Assembly: GCA_030550025.1 (NCBI GenBank)
Contig: JAUQQC010000006.1
Span: 1-64,000, forward strand
DNA from: Acidobacteriota bacterium
GTDB lineage: Bacteria > Acidobacteriota > Blastocatellia > HR10
DNA: 64,000 nt
Direction of reading: 5' to 3'
Shown here: positions 1-12,662 of the stretch, in pieces
Layout: the number at the start of each line of letters is the position of its first letter
How positions within the stretch are numbered: position 1 is the stretch's first letter
Translations under genes and position numbers: made by a program
The notes under the pieces: model-generated
What the model saw: the letters and a program-made list of their open reading frames with translations, nothing else
What the model was told of the DNA's origin: nothing
The model's database searches: none

Positions 1-338
1 CTCGCCAGAAGAGGAGGATCGAGAGTAGCCGAGGGTGATCGAAAAGCGCCCAATTCTCCATAAGGCCCCGAATGCGCCTGAGAGCGAGTCCCGGTGAAGA
101 CACAGCCCGTTAGGCGACCGCGCGCACGTTTGAAGAGTGCGATCCCCGGTTATCCCATCCGATGGAGCTCCCTGCGCGCACCTCTGGAGCTCGCTGCCGC
201 TTTCCCCAGGCTAAATTCTGCAAGCCCGCGCGTGCTGGCGACCGAGCCTCGCCGAGGGCGAGCCGTAAAGCCGGCTCCAAAAGGAGGCGATCCATCCGCT
301 CCTCCCCCCAAATTTTTCCTCGGGAAGTGAACTTTTCC
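1..338. other. Non-coding lead-in, no recognisable gene
   Basis: This stretch has overlapping open frames on both strands, but none has a Shine-Dalgarno site, a recognisable domain or a credible start. Short inverted repeats are present around 246-260 (CTCGCC/GGCGAG) and 276-305. No tRNA cloverleaf was recognised. It may be the downstream region of a gene outside the window. Confidence 0.5.
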
Positions 339-367
339 TTGACAAACCGAGGGACCCTATGTAATAT
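339..367 (+). promoter_or_regulatory. Near-consensus sigma-70 promoter for the small hydrophobic gene cluster
   Basis: TTGACA at 339-344 and TAATAT at 362-367 are separated by 17 nt, close to the ideal vegetative promoter. Transcription should start near 374, about 35 nt before the first small gene at 409. Confidence 0.8.
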
Positions 368-408
368 AAGCGCCGGATTGCTTCTCAACCTCAGGAAGGA
401 GGATGGTT

Positions 409-615
409 ATGAGAAAAGTGATGGCAGGGATGGGGCTTCTGGGTATGCCCCTTCTATCGCTTGGGGTGAGTGCCGTGCCTCAGCTCATCTTCGTGATCGC
501 GTTGCTTCTCGGAGGCGGAAATCTCACAGCAGGTGCGACGACGATCTTCACGGCCATTGTGGGGATAGCCGGGTTTATTGGGGTTCTTGGAATAAACCCG
601 CTCTTGGGGGCTTAA
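409..615 (+). CDS. Small hydrophobic protein 1 of a paralogous cluster (68 aa)
   Basis: No known family was recognised. The product starts MRK, has a hydrophobic first segment (about residues 4-20) containing LLG, a Pro near residue 24, then two further hydrophobic segments with glycine-rich turns. An AGGAAGGAGG ribosome site at 393-402 touches an ATG at 403, so the ATG at 409, six bases further on, is preferred. It shares its layout (M[K/R]K, LLG, P, then LL-rich segments) with the small genes at 683, 935, 1713 and 1994. It is the first gene after a near-perfect promoter, so high expression is expected. A small inner-membrane or secreted pore-forming peptide is possible but unproven. Confidence 0.75.
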   Translation: MRKVMAGMGLLGMPLLSLGVSAVPQLIFVIALLLGGGNLTAGATTIFTAIVGIAGFIGVLGINPLLGA

Positions 616-682
616 AGGGGCACGGTGAGTGGTGGATTTTTCAAGCTTTCCGTAAATGGAAAATCTCTAAAGGAGGAGGGTT

Positions 683-874
683 ATGAAGAAGCTGGTGACA
701 ATGGTTTTGGCTTTGACGTCCGTCTTGGGCTTTTCGCTGGCTGTGATGCTGCCGAGTGCGCTTGCCGTCGGCTTCTTGCTTGAAGCGGTCGGCATAACGG
801 TCGTCTCGAAGCTGATCTCGGCGCTCGTGGCCCTTGCGTTCGTTTTCCTTGCGCTTAACCCGATTATCGCGTGA
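683..874 (+). CDS. Small hydrophobic protein 2 of the cluster (63 aa)
   Basis: No known family was recognised. It begins MKK, followed by a hydrophobic segment ending near a Pro at about residue 24, then two membrane-like segments; the last ends LNPIIA, reminiscent of the INPLLGA end of the upstream paralogue. The ribosome site AAAGGAGGAGGG lies a few bases before the ATG. It sits 67 nt after the first small gene with no obvious new promoter, so it is probably co-transcribed. Apart from the initial Lys pair and one Lys and one Glu there is almost no charge, which argues for membrane insertion rather than a soluble role. Confidence 0.75.
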   Translation: MKKLVTMVLALTSVLGFSLAVMLPSALAVGFLLEAVGITVVSKLISALVALAFVFLALNPIIA

Positions 875-934
875 GCGCGATAGGTGGGAACGAGAGGGGA
901 ATTTTTCGAAATTTTTGCGAAAAGGAGGGTGCTT

Positions 935-1162
935 ATGAAGAAGTTGATCGCTTTGGGTTCTCTGTTGGGTCTACCTACAGTCCTCAGCGTTGGACATACG
1001 CTGCCGGGGATTATGACGATTCTCCTTTTTTCGCAGGCTCCGGCAGGAGTTTTTTCCACCCTGAATATACTGGCATTGGGGATCACAAGTTCTCTGTTCA
1101 GCTATTTCGTCTCGAGCGCTTTTGCGCCGACTGCTATTAGCAACTGGATCATTGGGTTGTAA
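935..1162 (+). CDS. Small hydrophobic protein 3 of the cluster (75 aa)
   Basis: The reading frame is open from 884, but AAAAGGAGGG at 920-929 places translation at the ATG at 935 (MKKLIALG). The first hydrophobic segment carries SLLGLP, like SLLGM/GLP in its neighbours, then a Pro near residue 24 and two further hydrophobic segments rich in Ser, Ala and Phe. No charged residue occurs after the N-terminal Lys pair, apart from one His. It lies in the same predicted transcript as the two upstream paralogues. Function is unknown. Confidence 0.75.
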   Translation: MKKLIALGSLLGLPTVLSVGHTLPGIMTILLFSQAPAGVFSTLNILALGITSSLFSYFVSSAFAPTAISNWIIGL

Positions 1163-1215
1163 GCAGGAAGAACGAGACGAAAGGAGCAGGGGCCGGATCT
1201 CCGGTGAGCGTTGAA

Positions 1216-1255
1216 GGTCATTAGGGAGCAGTGTAGCCCACTGCTCCCTGTGACC
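1216..1255 (+). other. Nested intergenic hairpin between small genes 3 and 4
   Basis: GGTCA (1216-1220) pairs with TGACC (1251-1255), and inside it GGGAGCAGTG (1224-1233) pairs perfectly with CACTGCTCCC (1239-1248) around a five-base loop. There is no T-tract, so an RNA-stability or attenuation element is more likely than a simple terminator. Confidence 0.6.
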
Positions 1256-1282
1256 AAGTATGTGATAAAAAAGGAGGAGGAT

Positions 1283-1372
1283 ATGGAAAGAGGGCAAAGA
1301 GGACAAATAACTCTCTTGGTGTTTCTTCTGCTCATTTGGATCGCCTTTGTCGCGTTGGTTGGAATACCCTAG
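1283..1372 (+). CDS. 29-residue single-span membrane peptide
   Basis: An AAAAAGGAGGAGG ribosome site at about 1268-1280 precedes an ATG at 1283. The frame encodes 29 residues ending in TAG: a short charged start (MERGQRGQ), then one hydrophobic helix of about 19 residues. The gene lies inside the small hydrophobic cluster, directly after a nested hairpin and directly before two terminator-like structures, so it would be the last gene of the first transcript. Its pattern differs from the multi-span paralogues: it lacks the M[K/R]K start and the Pro. It might be an accessory or immunity-type peptide, but that is speculation. Confidence 0.6.
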   Translation: MERGQRGQITLLVFLLLIWIAFVALVGIP

Positions 1373-1380
1373 GATTCCAC

Positions 1381-1420
1381 TGAGCACCCTGAGCGATCGA
1401 GAAATCGTTCAGGGTGCTCA
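1381..1420 (+). terminator. Long perfect-looking hairpin after the 29-aa gene
   Basis: TGAGCACCCTGAGCGAT and ATCGTTCAGGGTGCTCA form a 17-bp stem with one G-T pair and a six-base loop, starting 8 nt after the stop codon. No T-run follows, so it could be a processing or 3'-end-protecting stem. Confidence 0.55.
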
Positions 1421-1449
1421 TTGAGCGGAGTCTCCACAGGAGACTTTAA

Positions 1450-1487
1450 GGTGGGGGGGAAGCTCGAGGGTATACCCCCACCATTTT
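1450..1487 (+). terminator. Terminator-like GC stem with short T-tract
   Basis: GGTGGGGG (from 1450) pairs with CCCCCACC (1475-1482) and is followed by ATTTT. It lies after the first group of small genes and before the second promoter. Confidence 0.5.
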
Positions 1488-1631
1488 GGTAGTCGTGGTG
1501 ATTGCCTCTGTTGTCTCTTCAGAAGTCCTCTGATCGGGCTTGTCAGTAAAGGATTCATTCCCGCGGCTACCCTGAGGTGTGGGAGGTTCGCTCAGGGACT
1601 GCCGGCGCTGTTTCATCGAGCGAGAATCTCC

Positions 1632-1660
1632 TTGACATAGATTAGGTTTGCTGATACACT
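1632..1660 (+). promoter_or_regulatory. Second promoter of the small hydrophobic cluster
   Basis: TTGACA at 1632-1637, a 17-nt spacer and TACACT at 1655-1660, preceded by a TG two bases upstream (extended -10). It drives the genes at 1713 and 1994. The rest of 1373-1712 holds only the two hairpins and no credible gene. Confidence 0.75.
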
Positions 1661-1712
1661 GCGGGCTGTCGGCGTGCTGTGGAGGTGATTTTTTCAGTGA
1701 GGGGAGGCGTTT

Positions 1713-1955
1713 ATGAGAAAATGGCAGGCGCTCGTTTTGACGTTTGGCCTACCGCTTCTCTGGCAGAGCATGACGGTTTTCGTCCCAGGCGTTATCAGCA
1801 TTATTCTCCAGCTTCTGAACCTGGGCGGGGGGGGATTGAATTTCATTCAACTCCTGGCCATTGTCGCCGGGGTCGTCACGGCCTCTGGTCTTGATCTTGG
1901 GCTGGGGCTTTCGGGATTGGTGCTTCCGGCTTCCGTCTTCGTCTTCGTGCTCTGA
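1713..1955 (+). CDS. Small hydrophobic protein 5 of the cluster (80 aa)
   Basis: It starts MRKW, then FGLPLLW in the first hydrophobic segment, VP near residue 25, and three further hydrophobic stretches linked by glycine-rich turns (LGGGG, GLGLSG). GGGGAGG at 1701-1707 is its ribosome site; a separate GGAGGTGAT at 1681-1689, an excellent anti-Shine-Dalgarno match, sits further upstream. Its own promoter lies at 1632-1660. It is the longest and most hydrophobic member, with only one acidic residue. Function is unknown; it is paralogous to the genes at 409, 683, 935 and 1994 by layout. Confidence 0.75.
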   Translation: MRKWQALVLTFGLPLLWQSMTVFVPGVISIILQLLNLGGGGLNFIQLLAIVAGVVTASGLDLGLGLSGLVLPASVFVFVL

Positions 1956-1993
1956 GGAGGCGAGCGATCGGTTTGTCATTGGAGGGAGAAGCT

Positions 1994-2203
1994 ATGAAGA
2001 AATGGGCACTGTTGGCTCTTCTTGGTGGATCGTCTCTTTGGACTCTTTCGACACTTGCGATCCCGCATCTGGCCCTCATGCTTTTGGCCTTGATTTTGCC
2101 GGGGGCGGTCTTCTCTAATCCGGCTTTGATCGTCATCTTCGTCCTGCCGCTCATTTTGATTGCTATTTTCGGGGAATCGAATACGCTCCTGTTCCTCCTG
2201 TAG
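1994..2203 (+). CDS. Small hydrophobic protein 6 of the cluster (69 aa)
   Basis: The frame opens at 1973, but GGAGGGAGAAG at 1981-1991 selects the ATG at 1994 (MKKWALLALLGG). It shows the shared layout: Lys pair, LLG, a Trp-containing first segment, IP at about residue 24, then two long Leu/Ile-rich segments. It follows the paralogue at 1713 by 38 nt and is probably co-transcribed with it. It converges on rnhB, whose stop codon is 30 nt away. Its function is unknown. Confidence 0.75.
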   Translation: MKKWALLALLGGSSLWTLSTLAIPHLALMLLALILPGAVFSNPALIVIFVLPLILIAIFGESNTLLFLL

Positions 2204-2233
2204 CTGAGACGGTTGCTCTCGCATCGGGGTCAG

Positions 2234-2848
2234 TTACCGAACGCCACGGAAGGAGAGGCGGTGAAGAGGGCAAGGACCGAGCCGCGCGAGCGCGTCCCGA
2301 TGGGCGGGCGTGCCGTAGCCGACGTGTTGGGCGAAGCCGTAGCCAGGGTAAAGCTTGTCGTATTCTCGCATCAAGCGATCGCGTGTGACCTTGGCGATGA
2401 TCGAAGCGGCGGCAATGGAGACCGAAATTTGGTCTCCCCGGATGAGGGCGCGGTAGGGGATTCCAAGATCGTCGAGCTTGACGGCATCAATGAGGAGGAA
2501 ATCGGGGCGAGGGCGAAGCCCTTGGATCGCCTGCTTCATGGCGAATTCGGTGGCGCGAAGGATATGGATGCGATCAATCTCACGCGCGTCCACGATTCCG
2601 AGCGCGATGGCTCGGGCCGTCTCTCGGATCGCTCGAAAGAGCTGCTCTCGACGGCTTGAGGAGAGGCGTTTGGAGTCATCCAGGCCGTCGGGGAGGCGAT
2701 CGAGATCGAGGATCACCGCAGCAGCGACGACCGGCCCGGCCCAGGCCCCGCGTCCGACCTCATCCACGCCGGCGATGAACCGATAGCCGAGGCGGTTGAG
2801 TTCTCGTTCCAGAGCCGCCGTGCACGTTTGCGGTCTTTGTCGTCGCAT
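2234..2848 (-). CDS. rnhB: Ribonuclease HII
   Basis: Cleaves the RNA strand of RNA-DNA hybrids and removes misincorporated ribonucleotides from DNA. At 204 aa it is full length. The DEVGRG motif gives catalytic Asp29 and Glu30, DSKRLS starts at Asp58, and the remaining acidic ligands are Asp121 (LLIDA) and Asp157 (KVTRD), so the active site is complete. It stands alone on the minus strand with its own promoter upstream, between the small hydrophobic genes and the HEPN/MNT pair. The ATG is the first in frame after that promoter. Confidence 0.96.
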   Translation of the reverse strand: MRRQRPQTCTAALERELNRLGYRFIAGVDEVGRGAWAGPVVAAAVILDLDRLPDGLDDSKRLSSSRREQLFRAIRETARAIALGIVDAREIDRIHILRATEFAMKQAIQGLRPRPDFLLIDAVKLDDLGIPYRALIRGDQISVSIAAASIIAKVTRDRLMREYDKLYPGYGFAQHVGYGTPAHRDALARLGPCPLHRLSFRGVR

Positions 2849-2858
2849 CCTGTGCCTT

Positions 2859-2887
2859 AATTATTCCGGGTCCTCACAGAAGGTCAA
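2859..2887 (-). promoter_or_regulatory. rnhB promoter
   Basis: Read on the minus strand, TTGACC (2887-2882) is followed after 17 nt by ATAATT (2864-2859), just upstream of the rnhB start at 2848. Confidence 0.6.
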
Positions 2888-3060
2888 GAGCAGCGGAAGG
2901 TCCAAATTGAGCCTGGGGTGAGTGGGCCGTGTTGAAATGAACCTTCAACTGCATGAAGCCTGCGTCAGCGGGGCTCGCGTGATGCTCTGGGCTGAGCGCG
3001 CTCCTTTCGGGTTCATGTGGTCCTCGCATTCCGATTCTGCCCTGGCGCATCATTGGAAGC

Positions 3061-3466
3061 ATGGTGAATCGGGCTCAGGATTGGTTTCGGCAAGCCGAAA
3101 TTGATCTGGAAGGAGGCGGAAGCAGCTCGTCACGCTGAGCGGCATGAATGGGCGTGTTTCGCGGCTCAGCAGGCGGCCGAGAAGGCGGTGAAGGCCCTTC
3201 ATATGCACCTGGGGCAAGAGGCATGGGGGCGTGTCGTTGCACGACTCCTTCGGGAACTTCCTGAGACGGTGCGTGTTCCTCCTGACCTGATCGAGAAGGC
3301 GAAGGTCTTGGATAACTTCTACATCCCCACCCGATATCCCAATAGCCATCCCGAGGGGAGCCCTCATGATCACTATGGACCCTTGCAGAGCGAGGAGGCC
3401 ATTCGCTATGCCCGTGAGATCGTTGACTTCGTCCGTGCTCAAATGGCCGGATCGAGAGACGGTTGA
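3061..3466 (+). pseudogene. HEPN-domain toxin, frameshifted near its N-terminus
   Basis: The first 17 codons from the ATG at 3061 give a typical HEPN start (MVNRAQDWFRQAEIDLE), but that frame stops soon after. The remainder (ARHAERHEWACFAAQQAAEKAVKALH and onward) continues in the next frame. Removing one G in the GGAGG at about 3112-3115 joins them into a 134-aa protein, the usual size. The R-x4-H ribonuclease motif (RYPNSH) is present in the downstream part. HEPN proteins of this type are RNases neutralised by the MNT partner encoded immediately after. It could be a real inactivating mutation, programmed slippage, or a sequencing or assembly error; a TTG at 3101 could also start a shortened protein. 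Confidence 0.7.
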
Positions 3467-3779
3467 TCGCGCTGTTCGCGCTTGGGCGCACGCGATGGCC
3501 GAGGCGTATTCGGAGATCGTGCGCATCGGATACATTGGATCCTATGCGCGCGGGGATTGGGGACCGGGAAGCGATGTGGATTTGGTCATCCTGGTGGAGA
3601 CGTCCGCGGGGGCACTCATTCGACGGGCAGTGGATGCGCTTGATCTCTCCGTGCCGGCTGATCTCTTCGTCTACACGGTGGAGGAGTGGGAGGGGGTGCG
3701 GCCCACGCGGTTTGGGCAGATGGTCGAACGCGAAGCCGTGTGGGTTTACGTACGCGCGACGGAGCCGGGTCCCGCGTAG
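3435..3779 (+). CDS. MNT-type nucleotidyltransferase antitoxin (HEPN partner)
   Basis: Minimal nucleotidyltransferase of about 114 aa. The diagnostic GS-x10-D-x-D motif is intact (Gly35, Ser36, Asp47, Asp49). Proteins of this family neutralise HEPN RNases, in studied pairs by adding AMP to the toxin. The start is taken as GTG at 3435, which overlaps the HEPN frame by 32 nt; in-frame upstream codons belong to the HEPN gene. Overlap and order (HEPN then MNT) are standard for the module. If the HEPN gene is truly broken, this antitoxin is an orphan remnant. Confidence 0.85.
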   Translation: MLKWPDRETVDRAVRAWAHAMAEAYSEIVRIGYIGSYARGDWGPGSDVDLVILVETSAGALIRRAVDALDLSVPADLFVYTVEEWEGVRPTRFGQMVEREAVWVYVRATEPGPA

Positions 3780-3880
3780 TGAGAATGGGAAGCTTGCGGC
3801 TCCCCAATCGAGGCGGGAGTGGGTAATCGGGTGGGCTGTGCGAAGAGGGATTCCCCCTTATCGGAAGCCGTCCATGGATT

Positions 3881-5710
3881 TCATGGGCTTGCGGGATTTG
3901 TGCTGCGAAAGACGCCGCCGCCCTCGGTTCCAGCATAGAGCACTTGGCGCGCGTCTAGAGCGAGCGCGAGGATCGCCGTGTTGGTCAAGCCGGTGTTGAT
4001 CGGCGTCCAGCTCTCCCCTCGATCGCGAGAGCGAAAGACGCCTTGAGCCGTTCCGGCAAAGAGATGACCAGCTGCGGTGAGGATGAGCGCGCGCACATCG
4101 AGCGTGGGCAATCCGGTGCTGACGCGTTGCCATCGGGGTTTCTCTTGGATGGGCGTGCGGAAGACCCCGAGCTCGGTCGCGGCAAAGAGCATTCCATCAG
4201 GGGTCGCGACAAGCGCGCGAATCTCCCGTCCGCCGACTCCGGCCACTCCGGAAAGCCCATATCCGCTCCACTTCTGGCCATTATCCGTCGAGCGGAAGAC
4301 GCCGTTGCCCGTTCCGGCGAAAAGTTGCCCATCTGGGCTTGCGGTCAGAGCGAGGATGCGGCGTCCGAAAAGCCCAGAACGCCTCCATGTCCCCCCGCTA
4401 TCGGTTGAGCGAAAGATGCCGATTTGCGTTCCGGCGAAGAAGTCACCACTTGGGGCGACGAGGAGGGAGTGAACGGCCAGATTCGCCAATCCGACGAGCG
4501 TCCAGGTCTCTCCATCCCGTGAGAGGAAGAGGCCTGTAGAAGTTCCGGCCAGGAACGTCCCCCCGCGCGTGGCCGCCAGCGCCAATCCTTCGACGCGTGG
4601 GAGCGTGCGCCGATAACTCTGCCCCTGATCGCGGGAGAGAAAGAGTCCGTTCGCGCTCACTGCGACAAGGAGCGTCCCATCCGCTCGAACGACGAGCGCG
4701 CGGGCAGCCGAAGCGATCAAGCCTTGATTCACCGCTTGCCAGCTCGCCCCTCCGTCGGTCGAGCGAAAGACGCCGGTTCCTAAGGTCCCGACGAAGAGTT
4801 CTCCCTCGTCGGTGGGCAAGATCTTGAAGACTCTCAAGCCCTCCAATCCCGTGCTCGCGCCTTGCCAAGTCGCGCCTCCGTCCGTGGAGCGAAAGATGCC
4901 GCTATTGGCCGTTCCGGCAAAGAGCGTCCCATCGGGGGCGAGCGCCAGCGCGAGGATAGTCTTATCGCCAAGACCTTCGTTGACGCCCCGGAAATGATCG
5001 GCATTGTCCGTCGAGAGGAAGACGCCGCCGCCGAGCGTACCCACGTAGATGGCGTCTTCAGGCGTGATGATGAGGGTCGAGATGTTGTTATTGAGAAGGC
5101 CGAGGTGATACGTATAGCGCCAGCTTCGCCCCTGATCGGTCGAGCGATAGAGTTCTCCATTGGTCCCGGCGTAGATTCGGCCCTGCGAATCGCGGGCGAA
5201 AGCGCGCACGTCGAAGGCGGCGACGCCGAAGTTGACTTCCGTCCAGCTTTGGCCGCCATCGGTGGAGCGGAAGATGCCACCGCCGAAGGTGCCCGCGAGG
5301 ATGTACTCTTCGGTAGCGAAGAGGGCTTGCACCGAGAGACTCTTAAGCCCCGTGTTCACGGCCGTCCACGTAGCGCCGCCGTCGCGCGAGCGATAAATAC
5401 CCTGGCCTGCTGTTCCCGCTAAGATGTCGCCCGCGGGGGTGACGGCGAGGCTCAGCACGTGAGCGCCGAGGGCGGCTACCAATGTCCACGTCTGGCCACG
5501 ATCATCAGAACGAAAGAGGCCACCGCCAAAGGCACCGGCGAAGATCGCGCCCGTCGGGCTGGCGGCCAAGGCGAGGATTGTACCGCCTAGGGGGCCGTTC
5601 GTCTGCTCCCAGAACTCAGGCGGTGCAGGAGCCGCTTGCCGGCCCAATGGGAGAAGAAGTAGGCTGACGCTCAGAAGAAACACGCGAAAGCCCTTGCCCT
5701 TTGTTTTCAT
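3881..5710 (-). CDS. Secreted BNR/Asp-box repeat beta-propeller protein
   Basis: 609 aa. The start is the ATG at 5710 (MKTKGKG), downstream of a good promoter; it is followed by a signal peptide (about residues 8-28, cleavage after RQAAPA). The rest is about 14 repeats of roughly 41 residues carrying Asp-box motifs such as GVFRSTDGGATW, which fold as sortilin/Ycf48-like propeller blades. It is exported and may bind glycans or proteins at the surface; no catalytic residues can be assigned. It is divergently transcribed from the Kelch gene and resembles the shorter protein at 14702-15718. It is probably not a sialidase, because no sialidase arginine triad or FRIP motif was seen. Confidence 0.85.
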   Translation of the reverse strand: MKTKGKGFRVFLLSVSLLLLPLGRQAAPAPPEFWEQTNGPLGGTILALAASPTGAIFAGAFGGGLFRSDDRGQTWTLVAALGAHVLSLAVTPAGDILAGTAGQGIYRSRDGGATWTAVNTGLKSLSVQALFATEEYILAGTFGGGIFRSTDGGQSWTEVNFGVAAFDVRAFARDSQGRIYAGTNGELYRSTDQGRSWRYTYHLGLLNNNISTLIITPEDAIYVGTLGGGVFLSTDNADHFRGVNEGLGDKTILALALAPDGTLFAGTANSGIFRSTDGGATWQGASTGLEGLRVFKILPTDEGELFVGTLGTGVFRSTDGGASWQAVNQGLIASAARALVVRADGTLLVAVSANGLFLSRDQGQSYRRTLPRVEGLALAATRGGTFLAGTSTGLFLSRDGETWTLVGLANLAVHSLLVAPSGDFFAGTQIGIFRSTDSGGTWRRSGLFGRRILALTASPDGQLFAGTGNGVFRSTDNGQKWSGYGLSGVAGVGGREIRALVATPDGMLFAATELGVFRTPIQEKPRWQRVSTGLPTLDVRALILTAAGHLFAGTAQGVFRSRDRGESWTPINTGLTNTAILALALDARQVLYAGTEGGGVFRSTNPASP

Positions 5711-5744
5711 CGTCGTTTCGCCCCTTCGTCGGAATCTCTGAGAC

Positions 5745-5773
5745 TGAATAAAGCACCGGGCGCGCTCTGTCAA
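5745..5773 (-). promoter_or_regulatory. Promoter of the BNR-repeat gene
   Basis: On the minus strand TTGACA (5773-5768), a 17-nt spacer, then TATTCA (5750-5745), about 35 nt before the start codon at 5710. Confidence 0.7.
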
Positions 5774-5843
5774 GCGGAAAAATTCCGTGCAACATTTCGC
5801 CTGACATTGGGAGTCGAACCTGGTGGGATCGAAGGAGGAGGCG

Positions 5844-7682
5844 ATGATGGGAAGACGCCAAGGGTGGGATGGCTGCACGAAGCGCGCCTTCTTCCGCGTG
5901 GCGCGCGCAAAGAGCGGTCGAGCTGTTGAGCTGAAGGGGAGAGGCGCGCTGGCCCTTCTTCTGCTTCTGGCGCTTGGGTGGGGTGCTCGTCCGATCGCGG
6001 CGGCGGAAGTCGAGCGTTTGACTCCGCGTGTGGCGATCGCCCCGGACCTTTTTCCGGCCGCCGAGGAAGCGCACGCGCTCGTGTGTTTGAGCAATGCGAA
6101 CGCGGGCGCGACGGCGCGCCTTCAGCCGGGAGACGTATGGCGCGTTCTGTTCGACCGCGCGCGCCTGCTTCTGGATGGTCAGATCGTTCGTCTGCAGAGC
6201 GTCTCGGAGCAGCTGCGCGTGGAAGATTGGCTCGTGCGCGTGGATTTCCTGAGCAATGCGCTTGAGTTTCACTATCAGGGCGAGCCCAAGCCGTTTCGCT
6301 CGGAGGATCGCGTATGCGCGGAGATCGTGGTGCTCACTTCGGCGGAGGTGGGACTTGTGCGCGTGGGGTTGGTCGTTCCCGATGATCCGACGCGATACGA
6401 ATTGACGTCTTCGGAACCGATCTTTGTGAGCGTCGTGGATTTTCCGACGGGGCCGCCGGGTCCCCCTGGGCCACCTGGACCGGCGGGGCCGGCCGGACCT
6501 CCAGGGCCGCCTGGGCCGGAGCGCGTCGTCATCTCGACCGAAGGAGCGCTCCCGGCTGGAGCCATCATCTTGGGGCGACCGAACGATCAAGGCATCCTCG
6601 CTTCGGGGTTCTCTGAGATCGGGCGCTCGGTCATCGAAGCGTGGTTTCCGACCTCGACCAGCAACGCACCGAGTGGGCGCAGCGGGCACACGGCCGTTTG
6701 GACCGGCACGGAGATGCTCATCTGGGGTGGGAGCACATTGATCATCGGCGGTTTCACGAACACGGGCGGGCGGTACGATCCAGCGACCGATACCTGGCGT
6801 CCGATCTCGACGGCGAATGCTCCGAGCCCGCGAAGCGGTCATACGGCCATTTGGACCGGAAGCGAAATGATCGTGTGGGGAGGGATTGGGCTTCTCGGCC
6901 CGCTCAATACGGGCGGGCGGTACGATCCAGCGACCGATACCTGGCGTCCGATCTCGACGACCAATGCGCCAAGTCCGCGAAGCAATCACACGGCCGTGTG
7001 GACCGGCACGGAGATGCTCATCTGGGGCGGCAGCGATAGTCGAGGTCCCTTGAACACAGGCGCGCGATACAATCCCGCGACCGATACGTGGACGCCCATC
7101 TCAACGGCGAATGCTCCGAGTCCGCGAAGCGGTCATACAGCCATTTGGACCGGAAGCGAAATGATCATCTGGGGCGGCGTCGGCAGCGGCGGCACGCGCA
7201 CGAACACAGGCGGACGTTATGATCCGCGCACCGATAGCTGGCGGCCCGTCAGCACGACTGGCGCGCCAAGCGCCCGCAGCCACCACACGGCCGTTTGGAC
7301 GGGATCGGTCATGATCGTCTGGGGAGGGATTAACAACATTGACTTCTTCGCCACGGGCGGTCGCTATGATCCGGCGCGCGATAGCTGGACGGCCACAAGT
7401 ACGGCGAATGCTCCCGATGGCCGAGGTCAGCATACGGCCATCTGGACCGGTACGGAGATGCTCATCTGGGGTGGGACCAATCTCAATGGAGCGCAAGGCT
7501 CTGGCGGCCGATATGATCCGCGCGCGAACAGTTGGTCGAGCTTCACCAGCTCCAATGCTCCGAGTGGGCGCAGCGGGCATACGGCCGTTTGGACGGGCAT
7601 GGAGATGATCGTCTGGGGCGGGATTGGTCCTCTCAATACGGGCGGACGTTTGGGCTTCCTCTCCTTCTACCGAAAGAACTGA
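5844..7682 (+). CDS. Exported protein with collagen-like segment and seven Kelch-like repeats
   Basis: 612 aa. AAGGAGGAG at 5832-5840 precedes ATG at 5844 and 5847. The product has a basic N-terminus and a hydrophobic export signal (about residues 35-54, GALALLLLLALGWGARPIAAA). A domain of about 150 residues of unknown type follows, then eight Gly-X-Y triplets (residues 203-226). The C-terminal half holds seven repeats of about 50-55 residues with HTAVWTG.EM.IWGG and GGRYDPATDTW, a galactose-oxidase/Kelch propeller pattern. DNA between repeats is nearly identical in places, pointing to recent duplication. It is likely a surface or extracellular binding protein. A perfect terminator follows. 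Confidence 0.85.
   Translation: MMGRRQGWDGCTKRAFFRVARAKSGRAVELKGRGALALLLLLALGWGARPIAAAEVERLTPRVAIAPDLFPAAEEAHALVCLSNANAGATARLQPGDVWRVLFDRARLLLDGQIVRLQSVSEQLRVEDWLVRVDFLSNALEFHYQGEPKPFRSEDRVCAEIVVLTSAEVGLVRVGLVVPDDPTRYELTSSEPIFVSVVDFPTGPPGPPGPPGPAGPAGPPGPPGPERVVISTEGALPAGAIILGRPNDQGILASGFSEIGRSVIEAWFPTSTSNAPSGRSGHTAVWTGTEMLIWGGSTLIIGGFTNTGGRYDPATDTWRPISTANAPSPRSGHTAIWTGSEMIVWGGIGLLGPLNTGGRYDPATDTWRPISTTNAPSPRSNHTAVWTGTEMLIWGGSDSRGPLNTGARYNPATDTWTPISTANAPSPRSGHTAIWTGSEMIIWGGVGSGGTRTNTGGRYDPRTDSWRPVSTTGAPSARSHHTAVWTGSVMIVWGGINNIDFFATGGRYDPARDSWTATSTANAPDGRGQHTAIWTGTEMLIWGGTNLNGAQGSGGRYDPRANSWSSFTSSNAPSGRSGHTAVWTGMEMIVWGGIGPLNTGGRLGFLSFYRKN
6670..7660 (+). repeat. In-gene tandem Kelch repeat array
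   Basis: Seven direct repeats of about 150 bp inside the Kelch gene. A stretch of close to 50 bp covering GGRYDPATDTWRPIST is identical around 6763-6812 and 6909-6958, more conserved than protein selection alone would need. Confidence 0.75.
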
Positions 7683-9836: not shown

Positions 9837-10676
9837 TCACGGAGTCTCGATCTCGGGCGCTTCCTCTAGCGGGGATTCTATGGGCTGCAAAGCGCGTCGG
9901 GCGAAGGTGAGGAAGCCCGTATGCCCGACCATTCGCTCAAAGGGGCGCGTCTTGCCGGGGCGCACAAGCAGATGTCGGAGGAGGATTTCAACGGTCTCGA
10001 TCATCACGAAGCCTTCGGCCTGGAGTGTGGCGACCATGCGCTCGACTTGATTGAACGTGGGGGAGATCGAAGCCAGGCGGCCGCCGCCGCGAAGGGCGCG
10101 TCGGGCAGCGGGAACCCCCTCCCAAGGCGAGGGCAAGTCCAGCAGCACGACATCCACGTCCTCTTCGTCGAAGCCTTCGGCGGCATCCCGCACTTTGAAC
10201 TCGACCAGATGCGCAAGCCCTGCGCGCTCGACGTTCTCGCGCGCGATCTCCAGGAATCGCGGCTCGCGATCATAAGCGTAGACTTTACCCGTCGGTGCGA
10301 CGGCCGTCGCCAGAGCGAGCGTTGCCGCTCCGGAGCCAACACCGCATTCGATGACGTGCATGCCCGAGCGCACGCCCGTCTTCACGAGGATCAGGCCTGC
10401 ATCCTTCGGATAGATGATCTGCGTCAGCCGTCGCACCTTCATCATTCGGTCTTCAAGGGTCGGCTCCAGCACGACGAAGGGCCGACCCGTCGAGCTGCGC
10501 ACGATCTCGCCGTAGCGCTTCCCCACGACATCGGCATGACGGATCTCCCCGGCATGCGTCCCGAGTTTCCCCCCTTCGGTGAGGGAAATCAGGTAGGTCT
10601 TCCGGTCAGGCGAATAGAGCAAGACTGCGTCTCCGAGTTTGAGGCCGTCGCTCATGGAGCTGCGTTCGAGGCTCAC
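9837..10676 (-). CDS. trmI: tRNA (adenine-58-N1)-methyltransferase, TrmI type
   Basis: 279 aa SAM-dependent methyltransferase. An N-terminal small beta domain (GDAVLLYSPDRKTYLI) precedes the Rossmann fold, with the SAM motif VIECGVGSGAATLALA, the acidic DREPRFLEIA strand and DVVLLDLPSPW. The family makes m1A58 in tRNA, important for tRNA stability, especially in thermophiles. The GTG start at 10676 overlaps the speB stop (GTGA), implying translational coupling; an ATG at 10655 is an alternative. It is the last gene of the polyamine operon, and both polyamines and m1A58 stabilise RNA. Confidence 0.9.
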   Translation of the reverse strand: MSLERSSMSDGLKLGDAVLLYSPDRKTYLISLTEGGKLGTHAGEIRHADVVGKRYGEIVRSSTGRPFVVLEPTLEDRMMKVRRLTQIIYPKDAGLILVKTGVRSGMHVIECGVGSGAATLALATAVAPTGKVYAYDREPRFLEIARENVERAGLAHLVEFKVRDAAEGFDEEDVDVVLLDLPSPWEGVPAARRALRGGGRLASISPTFNQVERMVATLQAEGFVMIETVEILLRHLLVRPGKTRPFERMVGHTGFLTFARRALQPIESPLEEAPEIETP

Positions 10677-11563
10677 GGATTCTCGCGCGGGAGAGCGTGG
10701 TGAAAGATGTACCCGAGCGCCTTGTAGATGAGCTTCGCCACGATGAAATTCGACGCCTCATGTCCGGGCATGGGACAGAGTTCGGTCACATCCATACCGA
10801 CGATGGTGCGGTGTTCGGCCGTTTGGCGAATCAGCTGCAGCGTCTCGGTCCAGGAGAGGCCGCCTGGTTCCGGCGTCCCCGTGGCGGGGATGAGCGAGGG
10901 GTCCAACCCATCCACATCAATGGTCAGGTACACGTGTGGGCTCAGGGCGGCGATGACTTGAGGGATCCATTCGCGCGGATCCTGAAGGTCTTTGGCGAAG
11001 AACGTCGTGACGGGAAGCTGCCGTCGAGCACGCGCTTCTTCGAGCGAGAGGGCTCGGACGCCAACTTGCACGACGGGGCAAATCTCGACCAAGCGCGCCG
11101 CGACCGAGGCGTGACTATAGGGGGTGTCGTCGTATTGATCGCGCAAGTCGGCGTGAGCATCGATTTGAAGGACGGTCAGATCGGGATACCGTTCGGCGAC
11201 GGCGCGGACGATCGGGCTGGTGATCGAATGTTCGCCGCCGAGCGTGCAGAGGAATTTCCCCGTCCGGAGTAATCGGCGCGCTTCGTGATAGAGCCGTTCG
11301 ATAACTTCTTCGATCGGGGCATTGACCGGGGCCGGCGGCAGCGTGTGAATCCCCAGGCGATAGACCTCCGCTTCCAGCTCCTCGTCATAGAGCTCCAGAT
11401 GGCGCGAGGCCTCGATGATGGCATGAGGGCCGAGCGCCGTGCCCTTCAAGAACGTCGTCGTCGCTTCAAACGGCACAGGCCAGATGAGGATGCGCGCCGT
11501 CTCCCACGCCGCGTATTCCTCGGGCAAACCGCCGAAATTGAATCGGAGTTCCGGGACGCTCAT
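10673..11563 (-). CDS. speB: Agmatinase (ureohydrolase)
   Basis: 296 aa. Hydrolyses agmatine to putrescine and urea with a two-manganese centre. The ligands are visible: His in GGEHS, the DAHADLRD block and DVDGLDPS, plus the late MDVTELCP segment. Arginase is excluded mainly by context: an arginine decarboxylase gene lies in the same operon. It starts at ATG 11563, 44 nt after the speY-like gene, and overlaps trmI by four bases. Confidence 0.92.
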   Translation of the reverse strand: MSVPELRFNFGGLPEEYAAWETARILIWPVPFEATTTFLKGTALGPHAIIEASRHLELYDEELEAEVYRLGIHTLPPAPVNAPIEEVIERLYHEARRLLRTGKFLCTLGGEHSITSPIVRAVAERYPDLTVLQIDAHADLRDQYDDTPYSHASVAARLVEICPVVQVGVRALSLEEARARRQLPVTTFFAKDLQDPREWIPQVIAALSPHVYLTIDVDGLDPSLIPATGTPEPGGLSWTETLQLIRQTAEHRTIVGMDVTELCPMPGHEASNFIVAKLIYKALGYIFHHALPRENP

Positions 11564-11606
11564 CGTCCTCTCGCCGGATGCTGCGGGCGGATATAGCCGA
11601 GGCCGC

Positions 11607-12662
11607 TCATGGATAATTGACGCGCAGCTCGCGCCCCATGATGAAGGTGGGGCGACGACGCAGCTTCGCCTCTCGGATCGCGCCCTGCGCCAACGCCGTC
11701 ACCAAAAGCGGCATGGCAATGGTCGTATCGCAGTAGACGGTGACGGTCTGCGCCCCCTTGGCAATGGCGCCCCAACTCTGCGCCTCCTCGAAGGTCGAGC
11801 CGGAGACCGTACCGAAGTACGGCGGATCGGTGATGACCTGAATGGCATAGTGATGGCCGCGCGCATTCGCCTTGAGCATCGCAGCGGTCGTCTCGGCCTG
11901 CGCCAGGAACTGCTTCGGACTGCCGCCGTCGAAGCAGATGATGCCCGTCTTTGGCGCTCGGCTCACGATCTGTGCGATCTCCACCACATCTTGCACGAGA
12001 TCGAATTGAAAGACGGTCTTGCGTTCGACTCGGCTGACGGCCAAGCCCACAGCGATTGAGGAGTCGGCTACGGCCGGACAGAAGATCGGGACCTTCGCCT
12101 TATAGGCGGCCGTCAAGATGCCATCTTCGGTCGCGATCTCCGCCAGCTCGCGCCCCAAGAGATAGAAGAACTCGCGCGTCGAGTACGGACGGCTCAGGTC
12201 CAATTGTGCGATGAAGTTGCCGATCCATTCGTCGGCCTCGCGGAATTCGACCTCGCTGGCCAGGGTATCGTACATCCGGTCCACGAGTGCTTCTTGCAGC
12301 TCCGTATCATCCAGATTCGGACTCCCGATATAGTGGTATCGTCCGAGCGTCTCATGCAGGTCATGGAAGAGATTGGTGCCCGTCGTGACCAGGACGTCAA
12401 TGAAGCGATTCTTGATCAAGTAGGCCACCAGACGCCGCATGCCGGCTGGAACCGCCCATCCGGCCAACCCCATGAGGATCGTCGCGTGATCGGCGAGCAT
12501 CTTCTTCCAGATGTTGCGCGCCAGGGCGAGATTCCGCCCCTGGAAGGAGATGCCCTCCATCTTGTCGAGCAGACCGGCGACGGACCGATCCCGATCGATT
12601 TGGATCGGGCGCGTGGGTGTGGTCAGGAATTTCGTGCTCTTGGTCTTGCGAATGACCATCAT
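11607..12662 (-). CDS. speY: Deoxyhypusine synthase-like protein, probable homospermidine synthase
   Basis: 351 aa. It belongs to the deoxyhypusine synthase fold (TGTNLFHDLHETLG; FCPAVADSSIAVGLA; ICFDGGSPKQFL; EEAQSWGAIAKGAQ). Bacteria lack eIF5A; a cyanobacterial homologue, SpeY, makes homospermidine from putrescine, and the speA and speB neighbours fit that route. Where human deoxyhypusine synthase has its imine-forming Lys (SWGKI), this protein reads SWGAI, with a Lys three residues later. Whether that is normal for bacterial homologues could not be checked here. ATGs at 12662 and 12659 are both possible. Confidence 0.85.
   Translation of the reverse strand: MMVIRKTKSTKFLTTPTRPIQIDRDRSVAGLLDKMEGISFQGRNLALARNIWKKMLADHATILMGLAGWAVPAGMRRLVAYLIKNRFIDVLVTTGTNLFHDLHETLGRYHYIGSPNLDDTELQEALVDRMYDTLASEVEFREADEWIGNFIAQLDLSRPYSTREFFYLLGRELAEIATEDGILTAAYKAKVPIFCPAVADSSIAVGLAVSRVERKTVFQFDLVQDVVEIAQIVSRAPKTGIICFDGGSPKQFLAQAETTAAMLKANARGHHYAIQVITDPPYFGTVSGSTFEEAQSWGAIAKGAQTVTVYCDTTIAMPLLVTALAQGAIREAKLRRRPTFIMGRELRVNYP

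Follow-up and report, generated by a model that had tools for sequence, protein, structure and literature searches.

A tandem array of small hydrophobic genes in two promoter units

Six small open reading frames (ORFs) lie on the forward strand between positions 409 and 2203 of the window, the 64,000-nucleotide stretch of an Acidobacteriota contig analyzed here. Their coordinates proved to be exact, as in the original prediction of five genes of 63–80 codons plus one of 29, arranged in tandem on one strand. The longer genes, g1 (409–615, 68 residues), g2 (683–874, 63 residues), g3 (935–1162, 75 residues), g5 (1713–1955, 80 residues) and g6 (1994–2203, 69 residues), encode small hydrophobic proteins, and g4 (1283–1372, 29 residues) encodes a peptide with a single transmembrane (TM) segment. 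Directly beyond the array is a convergent ribonuclease HII gene, rnhB (2234–2848). The window starts at a contig end, so that the upstream context of the array is known from relatives only.

The very strong ribosome sites and two near-consensus promoters that had been read from the letters were both borne out. The sites of g1–g4 contain a 7-nucleotide exact match to the anti-Shine-Dalgarno (anti-SD) complement, with energies of −11.6 to −12.1 kcal/mol, and those of g5 and g6 reach −11.2 and −9.8 kcal/mol, respectively. The median for 46 larger genes of the window, each taken with the best of all its candidate starts, is −7.3 kcal/mol, weaker than any of these six sites. Sigma70-like promoters were found on the forward strand at 339–367 (TTGACA-17-TAATAT) and 1632–1660 (TTGACA-17-TACACT), and the −35 and −10 elements of both are kept in two genomes of the same genus, G002 and G003. 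The leader of g1 is near-identical across these three species. The promoters define two units, g1–g4 (unit A) and g5–g6 (unit B).

Region 1183–1440 also holds two very stable stem-loops on either side of g4, neither with a T-run. The first, between g3 and g4 (1216–1254, forward strand), lies in a segment (1183–1260) that folds with −39.8 kcal/mol (z −4.65), and a similar inverted repeat was recognized by eye in the g3–g4 interval of G002 and G003. The second follows g4 (1381–1420, forward strand; fold of 1375–1440, −34.7 kcal/mol, z −5.76), is present in G002 and absent from G003, and is a possible terminator or mRNA end. Both may act in termination, processing or mRNA stabilization. An Rfam search of window positions 1–4000 returned no match to a structured RNA.

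We asked how often ORFs of this kind occur by chance. Among all SD-preceded ATG ORFs of 60–100 residues in the window, four have a GRAVY above 1.2 and all of them are in the array, where g3 falls narrowly below the cut; the rest of the 64 kb has none. None arose in 300 dinucleotide-preserving shuffles of positions 300–2300. All six genes are present in both G002 and G003. G003 keeps the gene order of the array, and in G002 rnhB stands between the g1–g4 unit and the g5–g6 unit. In two further genomes, G001 and G004, a copy of g5 lies at a contig end adjoining a gene for a 706-residue E1-type dehydrogenase (loci L049 and L048), and this unit has apparently been relocated more than once within the genus. 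The rearrangement in G002 and the placement of g5 in G001 and G004 therefore indicate two units that are mobile yet retained.

Ortholog dN/dS ratios are 0.13–0.15 for g5, 0.13–0.20 for g2, 0.16–0.25 for g6, 0.26–0.41 for g1 and 0.28–0.65 for g3, the least constrained, compared with 0.12–0.19 for rnhB. Within the genus, g4 retains its TM part but not its start codon. The array ORFs are thus real genes under purifying selection, and the shuffles, the conservation and the dN/dS ratios together rule out chance ORFs. Loss of the frames in relatives and a dN/dS ratio near one were both looked for, and neither was found. As had been proposed, this is a diverged family kept by selection, with frames retained in two sister species, dN/dS ratios of 0.13–0.65 and profile members across the order.

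A diverged family of paralogs in one order of Blastocatellia

Mutual identity among the array members is ~20–35%, as low as originally noted. Membership was judged with a profile trained solely on families f2 and f3 of the order, that is, without the window genes, and each score was compared with those of 500 shuffles of the same protein in which the composition and the first three residues (MKK) were preserved. None of the 500 shuffles reached the scores of g1 (21.6), g3 (25.9), g5 (17.7) or g6 (22.8), which rules out mere compositional similarity for these four. For g2 (8.6), which has a g2-like counterpart in a genome of the same family (G005, C69), 10 of 500 shuffles reached the score; it is a weak member, and compositional similarity is not fully ruled out for it. 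In the case of g4, 191 of 500 shuffles reached the score; this peptide, with its single segment, stands outside the family. The claim that the genes are paralogs thus holds for g1, g3, g5 and g6, holds weakly for g2 and fails for g4. In G007, a gene close to rnhB (L025, 8129–8224) has an SD-like site and encodes a 31-residue one-segment hydrophobic peptide, g4-like in kind if not necessarily in descent.

Family members are ~56–85 residues long. They share an N-terminal MKK, a proline near residue 24 and a hydrophobic tail, whereas their middle part varies. At least two of the first four residues are K or R in 43 of 47 members, and 45 of 47 have a proline within residues 20–28. The C-terminal residue is L, F or A in all 28 ortholog groups (P ~3e-11 under the family composition, to which the use of a selection profile covering the C-terminus may contribute), and positions −3 and −4 from the C-terminus are mostly aliphatic or aromatic in these groups. 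In the larger member set the same design recurs at every locus, with strong SDs nearly throughout.

A 16-member profile matched all 10 genomes of the order (Acidobacteriota, Blastocatellia), with 1–10 copies each and alignments that nearly always begin at profile position 1. The window genome (G000) carries seven copies or more: the five of the array and one each at C26 and C4. Outside the family of the window genome, the g5 and g6 profiles match gene pairs in G006, G007, G008 and G009, which represent the order's remaining families; g5-like and g6-like genes stay distinct there, and the paralogs are kept apart across species. Against 396 Acidobacteriota genomes from across the phylum, the family profile matched the five order members sampled and gave one marginal, chance-like match inside a 179-codon frame (G363, E 0.005). 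The g5 and g6 profiles were essentially order-only among 147 genomes of the class, with a chance-like partial match of g6 in G035 (E 0.003), and a contig scan with f2 and f3 sequences returned only Blastocatellia/Acidobacteria MAGs. These searches used a first-look filter that very distant relatives may escape. Pfam, NCBIfam, PHROGs and PADLOC gave no family above its curated cut-off or at E <1e-3, and PDB sequences contained no relative of the array proteins, in agreement with the earlier impression that this is not a known family. Our literature searches also found no description of it. Thus, this small-protein family is apparently new to description and essentially confined to the order.

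Pore-forming bacteriocin-like or toxin peptides were among the roles first proposed. Circular and pore-forming class II bacteriocins are helical, strongly hydrophobic and 60–80 residues long, and the array products resemble them in size, hydrophobicity and predicted helices; the clustering of the genes also speaks for such a role. However, distinct paralogs sit at conserved loci and have been inherited vertically across the order, several to a genome, which is the strongest argument against such a function. Neither PADLOC nor PHROG gave a convincing match (PADLOC had none at E up to 1, and the sole holin match, at 0.74, was at chance level). Phage or plasmid cargo was likewise rejected: no match came from a plasmid search with one member, a phage search with one member or a search of viral contigs with the g5 relatives. 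No maturation, ABC-transport or immunity gene was seen beside members, as judged by eye and with Pfam for selected genes, nor was an antitoxin gene seen among the neighbors, and near-consensus promoters with strong ribosome sites are unlike those of type I toxins. We therefore give this role little weight.

Genes beside the arrays

The neighborhoods of family members contain rnhB, genes for patatin-like, TolB-like, BNR, Kelch, NHL, FG-GAP and beta-helix proteins, and housekeeping genes. In the window genome, the C26 copy starts 66 bp after a gene for a secreted beta-helix-like protein and the C4 copy immediately precedes an FG-GAP protein gene. In G006 (C130) an NHL gene, two members and a Kelch gene follow one another. 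The G007 locus reads two members, Kelch, two members, SpoIIM and Yip1-like, and the G008 locus three members, NHL (on the other strand), two members, Kelch, two members, SpoIIM and Yip1-like. At several loci, members and genes for secreted repeat proteins are thus arranged as in an operon. Within the window, the BNR and collagen-Kelch genes are separated from the array by rnhB. SpoIIM/Yip1 was rejected as an obligate partner, as these genes adjoin members in G006–G009 but in the genus of the window are found elsewhere, without the small genes.

The window genome encodes ~20 secreted repeat proteins (2 NHL, ~10 FG-GAP, 2 Kelch, 3 beta-helix and at least one BNR), and therefore the direct adjacency of such a gene at ~3 of ~12 independent loci exceeds expectation, with a rough binomial value of ~0.002 for classes that were chosen post hoc. 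The eight or nine remaining independent loci show no such adjacency.

Two other parts of the window caught our attention. At 3881–7682 a BNR/Ycf48-like repeat protein gene (reverse strand) and a gene whose secreted Kelch product contains a collagen-like Gly-Pro-Pro stretch (forward strand) are divergent, and their longest ORFs overlap; genes of this Kelch family are also found inside the arrays in G007 and G008 and beside the small genes in G006. At 10673–12662 a deoxyhypusine-synthase-like gene comes after an agmatinase-like one, both identified by eye, a pair that is unusual for a bacterium.

Some copies lie just upstream of secreted-protein genes, as might be expected if the ORFs were SecM- or MifM-like leaders or secretion monitors that regulate the downstream gene and whose peptides have no stable role. 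However, copies also lie downstream of a secreted gene, three or more small genes can stand in a row, and the proteins are conserved end to end under purifying selection, all of which makes such a function highly improbable.

Single copies are also found in unrelated settings, in kinase, IHF/MerR, dehydrogenase and cytochrome neighborhoods (judged by eye). Together with the highly divergent middles of the paralogs, this could mean that each product is a small accessory subunit of a different larger membrane complex, with no common assembly. KdpF, CydX and the small photosystem proteins are tiny integral membrane proteins of this kind, and the array products are similarly tiny and have no enzymatic domain. 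In contrast to these subunits, the family forms tandem arrays, with several copies within one apparent operon and end motifs in common, and it adjoins no common large complex, nor are there membrane-complex genes beside the window array. We regard a set of separate accessory subunits as possible but, on balance, doubtful.

Predicted topology and possible role in the cell envelope

The array products are very hydrophobic and probably membrane-embedded. Low-confidence AlphaFold models place helices at residues 3–34 and 43–68 of g6 (pLDDT 70.5, pTM 0.36) and at residues 2–34 and 44–59 of g5 (pLDDT 68.2), and a fold search of a low-confidence model against the PDB gave no match; two and three TM segments are indistinguishable in these proteins.

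The MKK start, hydrophobic stretch and proline resemble a signal peptide, and could suggest that the proteins are secreted coat peptides with an N-terminal Sec signal and a hydrophobic remainder that assembles on the cell surface. The Streptomyces chaplins and surface hydrophobins are sets of small hydrophobic paralogs, as is the family described here, and such a coat would also fit the strong expression signals and the loci at which members are linked to secreted repeat proteins. However, no consistent signal-peptidase I site emerged from a motif count, which found a loose small-x-small pattern in 30 of 47 members and a strict A-x-A within residues 18–28 in 7 of 47. Furthermore, the N-terminal segment is the best-aligned region of the family, the remainder consists of long hydrophobic helices that would likely be retained in the membrane, and the family has no match to chaplins or any other Pfam entry. 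A surface coat is therefore quite unlikely.

Of the roles put forward in the original prediction, whose observation was confirmed and whose interpretation was partly supported, structural membrane peptides remain the best fit. The best reading, which we offer tentatively, is that the array encodes helical-hairpin proteins of the inner membrane that serve a lineage-specific envelope module in a structural or accessory capacity. A comparable arrangement is known from mamGFDC-type clusters, which encode small, abundant hydrophobic proteins of the magnetosome membrane. The array likewise clusters small hydrophobic membrane proteins of low mutual identity, but its family has no sequence relation to them in any library searched, and no magnetosome genes were noticed at the loci that we read.

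Such an envelope module might work as follows. Each product would insert into the inner membrane as a hairpin of helices, and its N-terminus, which carries the lysines, would face the cytoplasm. Distinct paralogs, presumably produced in quantity, would then pack, probably with one another, to form a scaffold in the membrane or an accessory complex of the envelope, which may work with the secreted Kelch, NHL, FG-GAP and beta-helix proteins whose genes adjoin other copies. A single machinery for insertion, assembly or turnover could recognize the tails that the paralogs have in common, and the variable middles might confer partner specificity. A more far-reaching version, which we consider unlikely, is that the hairpins with their common C-terminal tag build an assembly in the membrane by which the secreted propeller and repeat proteins encoded with them are anchored or exported, an envelope apparatus that would define the order. 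If true, this would be a secretion or display system without a known counterpart.

The array thus belongs to a well-supported multi-copy family without a match in any library searched. All 10 sampled genomes of the order retain at least some of it, and the phylum is abundant and little-cultured. Proteins so short and hydrophobic are easily missed by annotation and proteomics, and both the rule for the C-terminal residue and the association with secreted repeat proteins provide concrete handles on what such arrays do.
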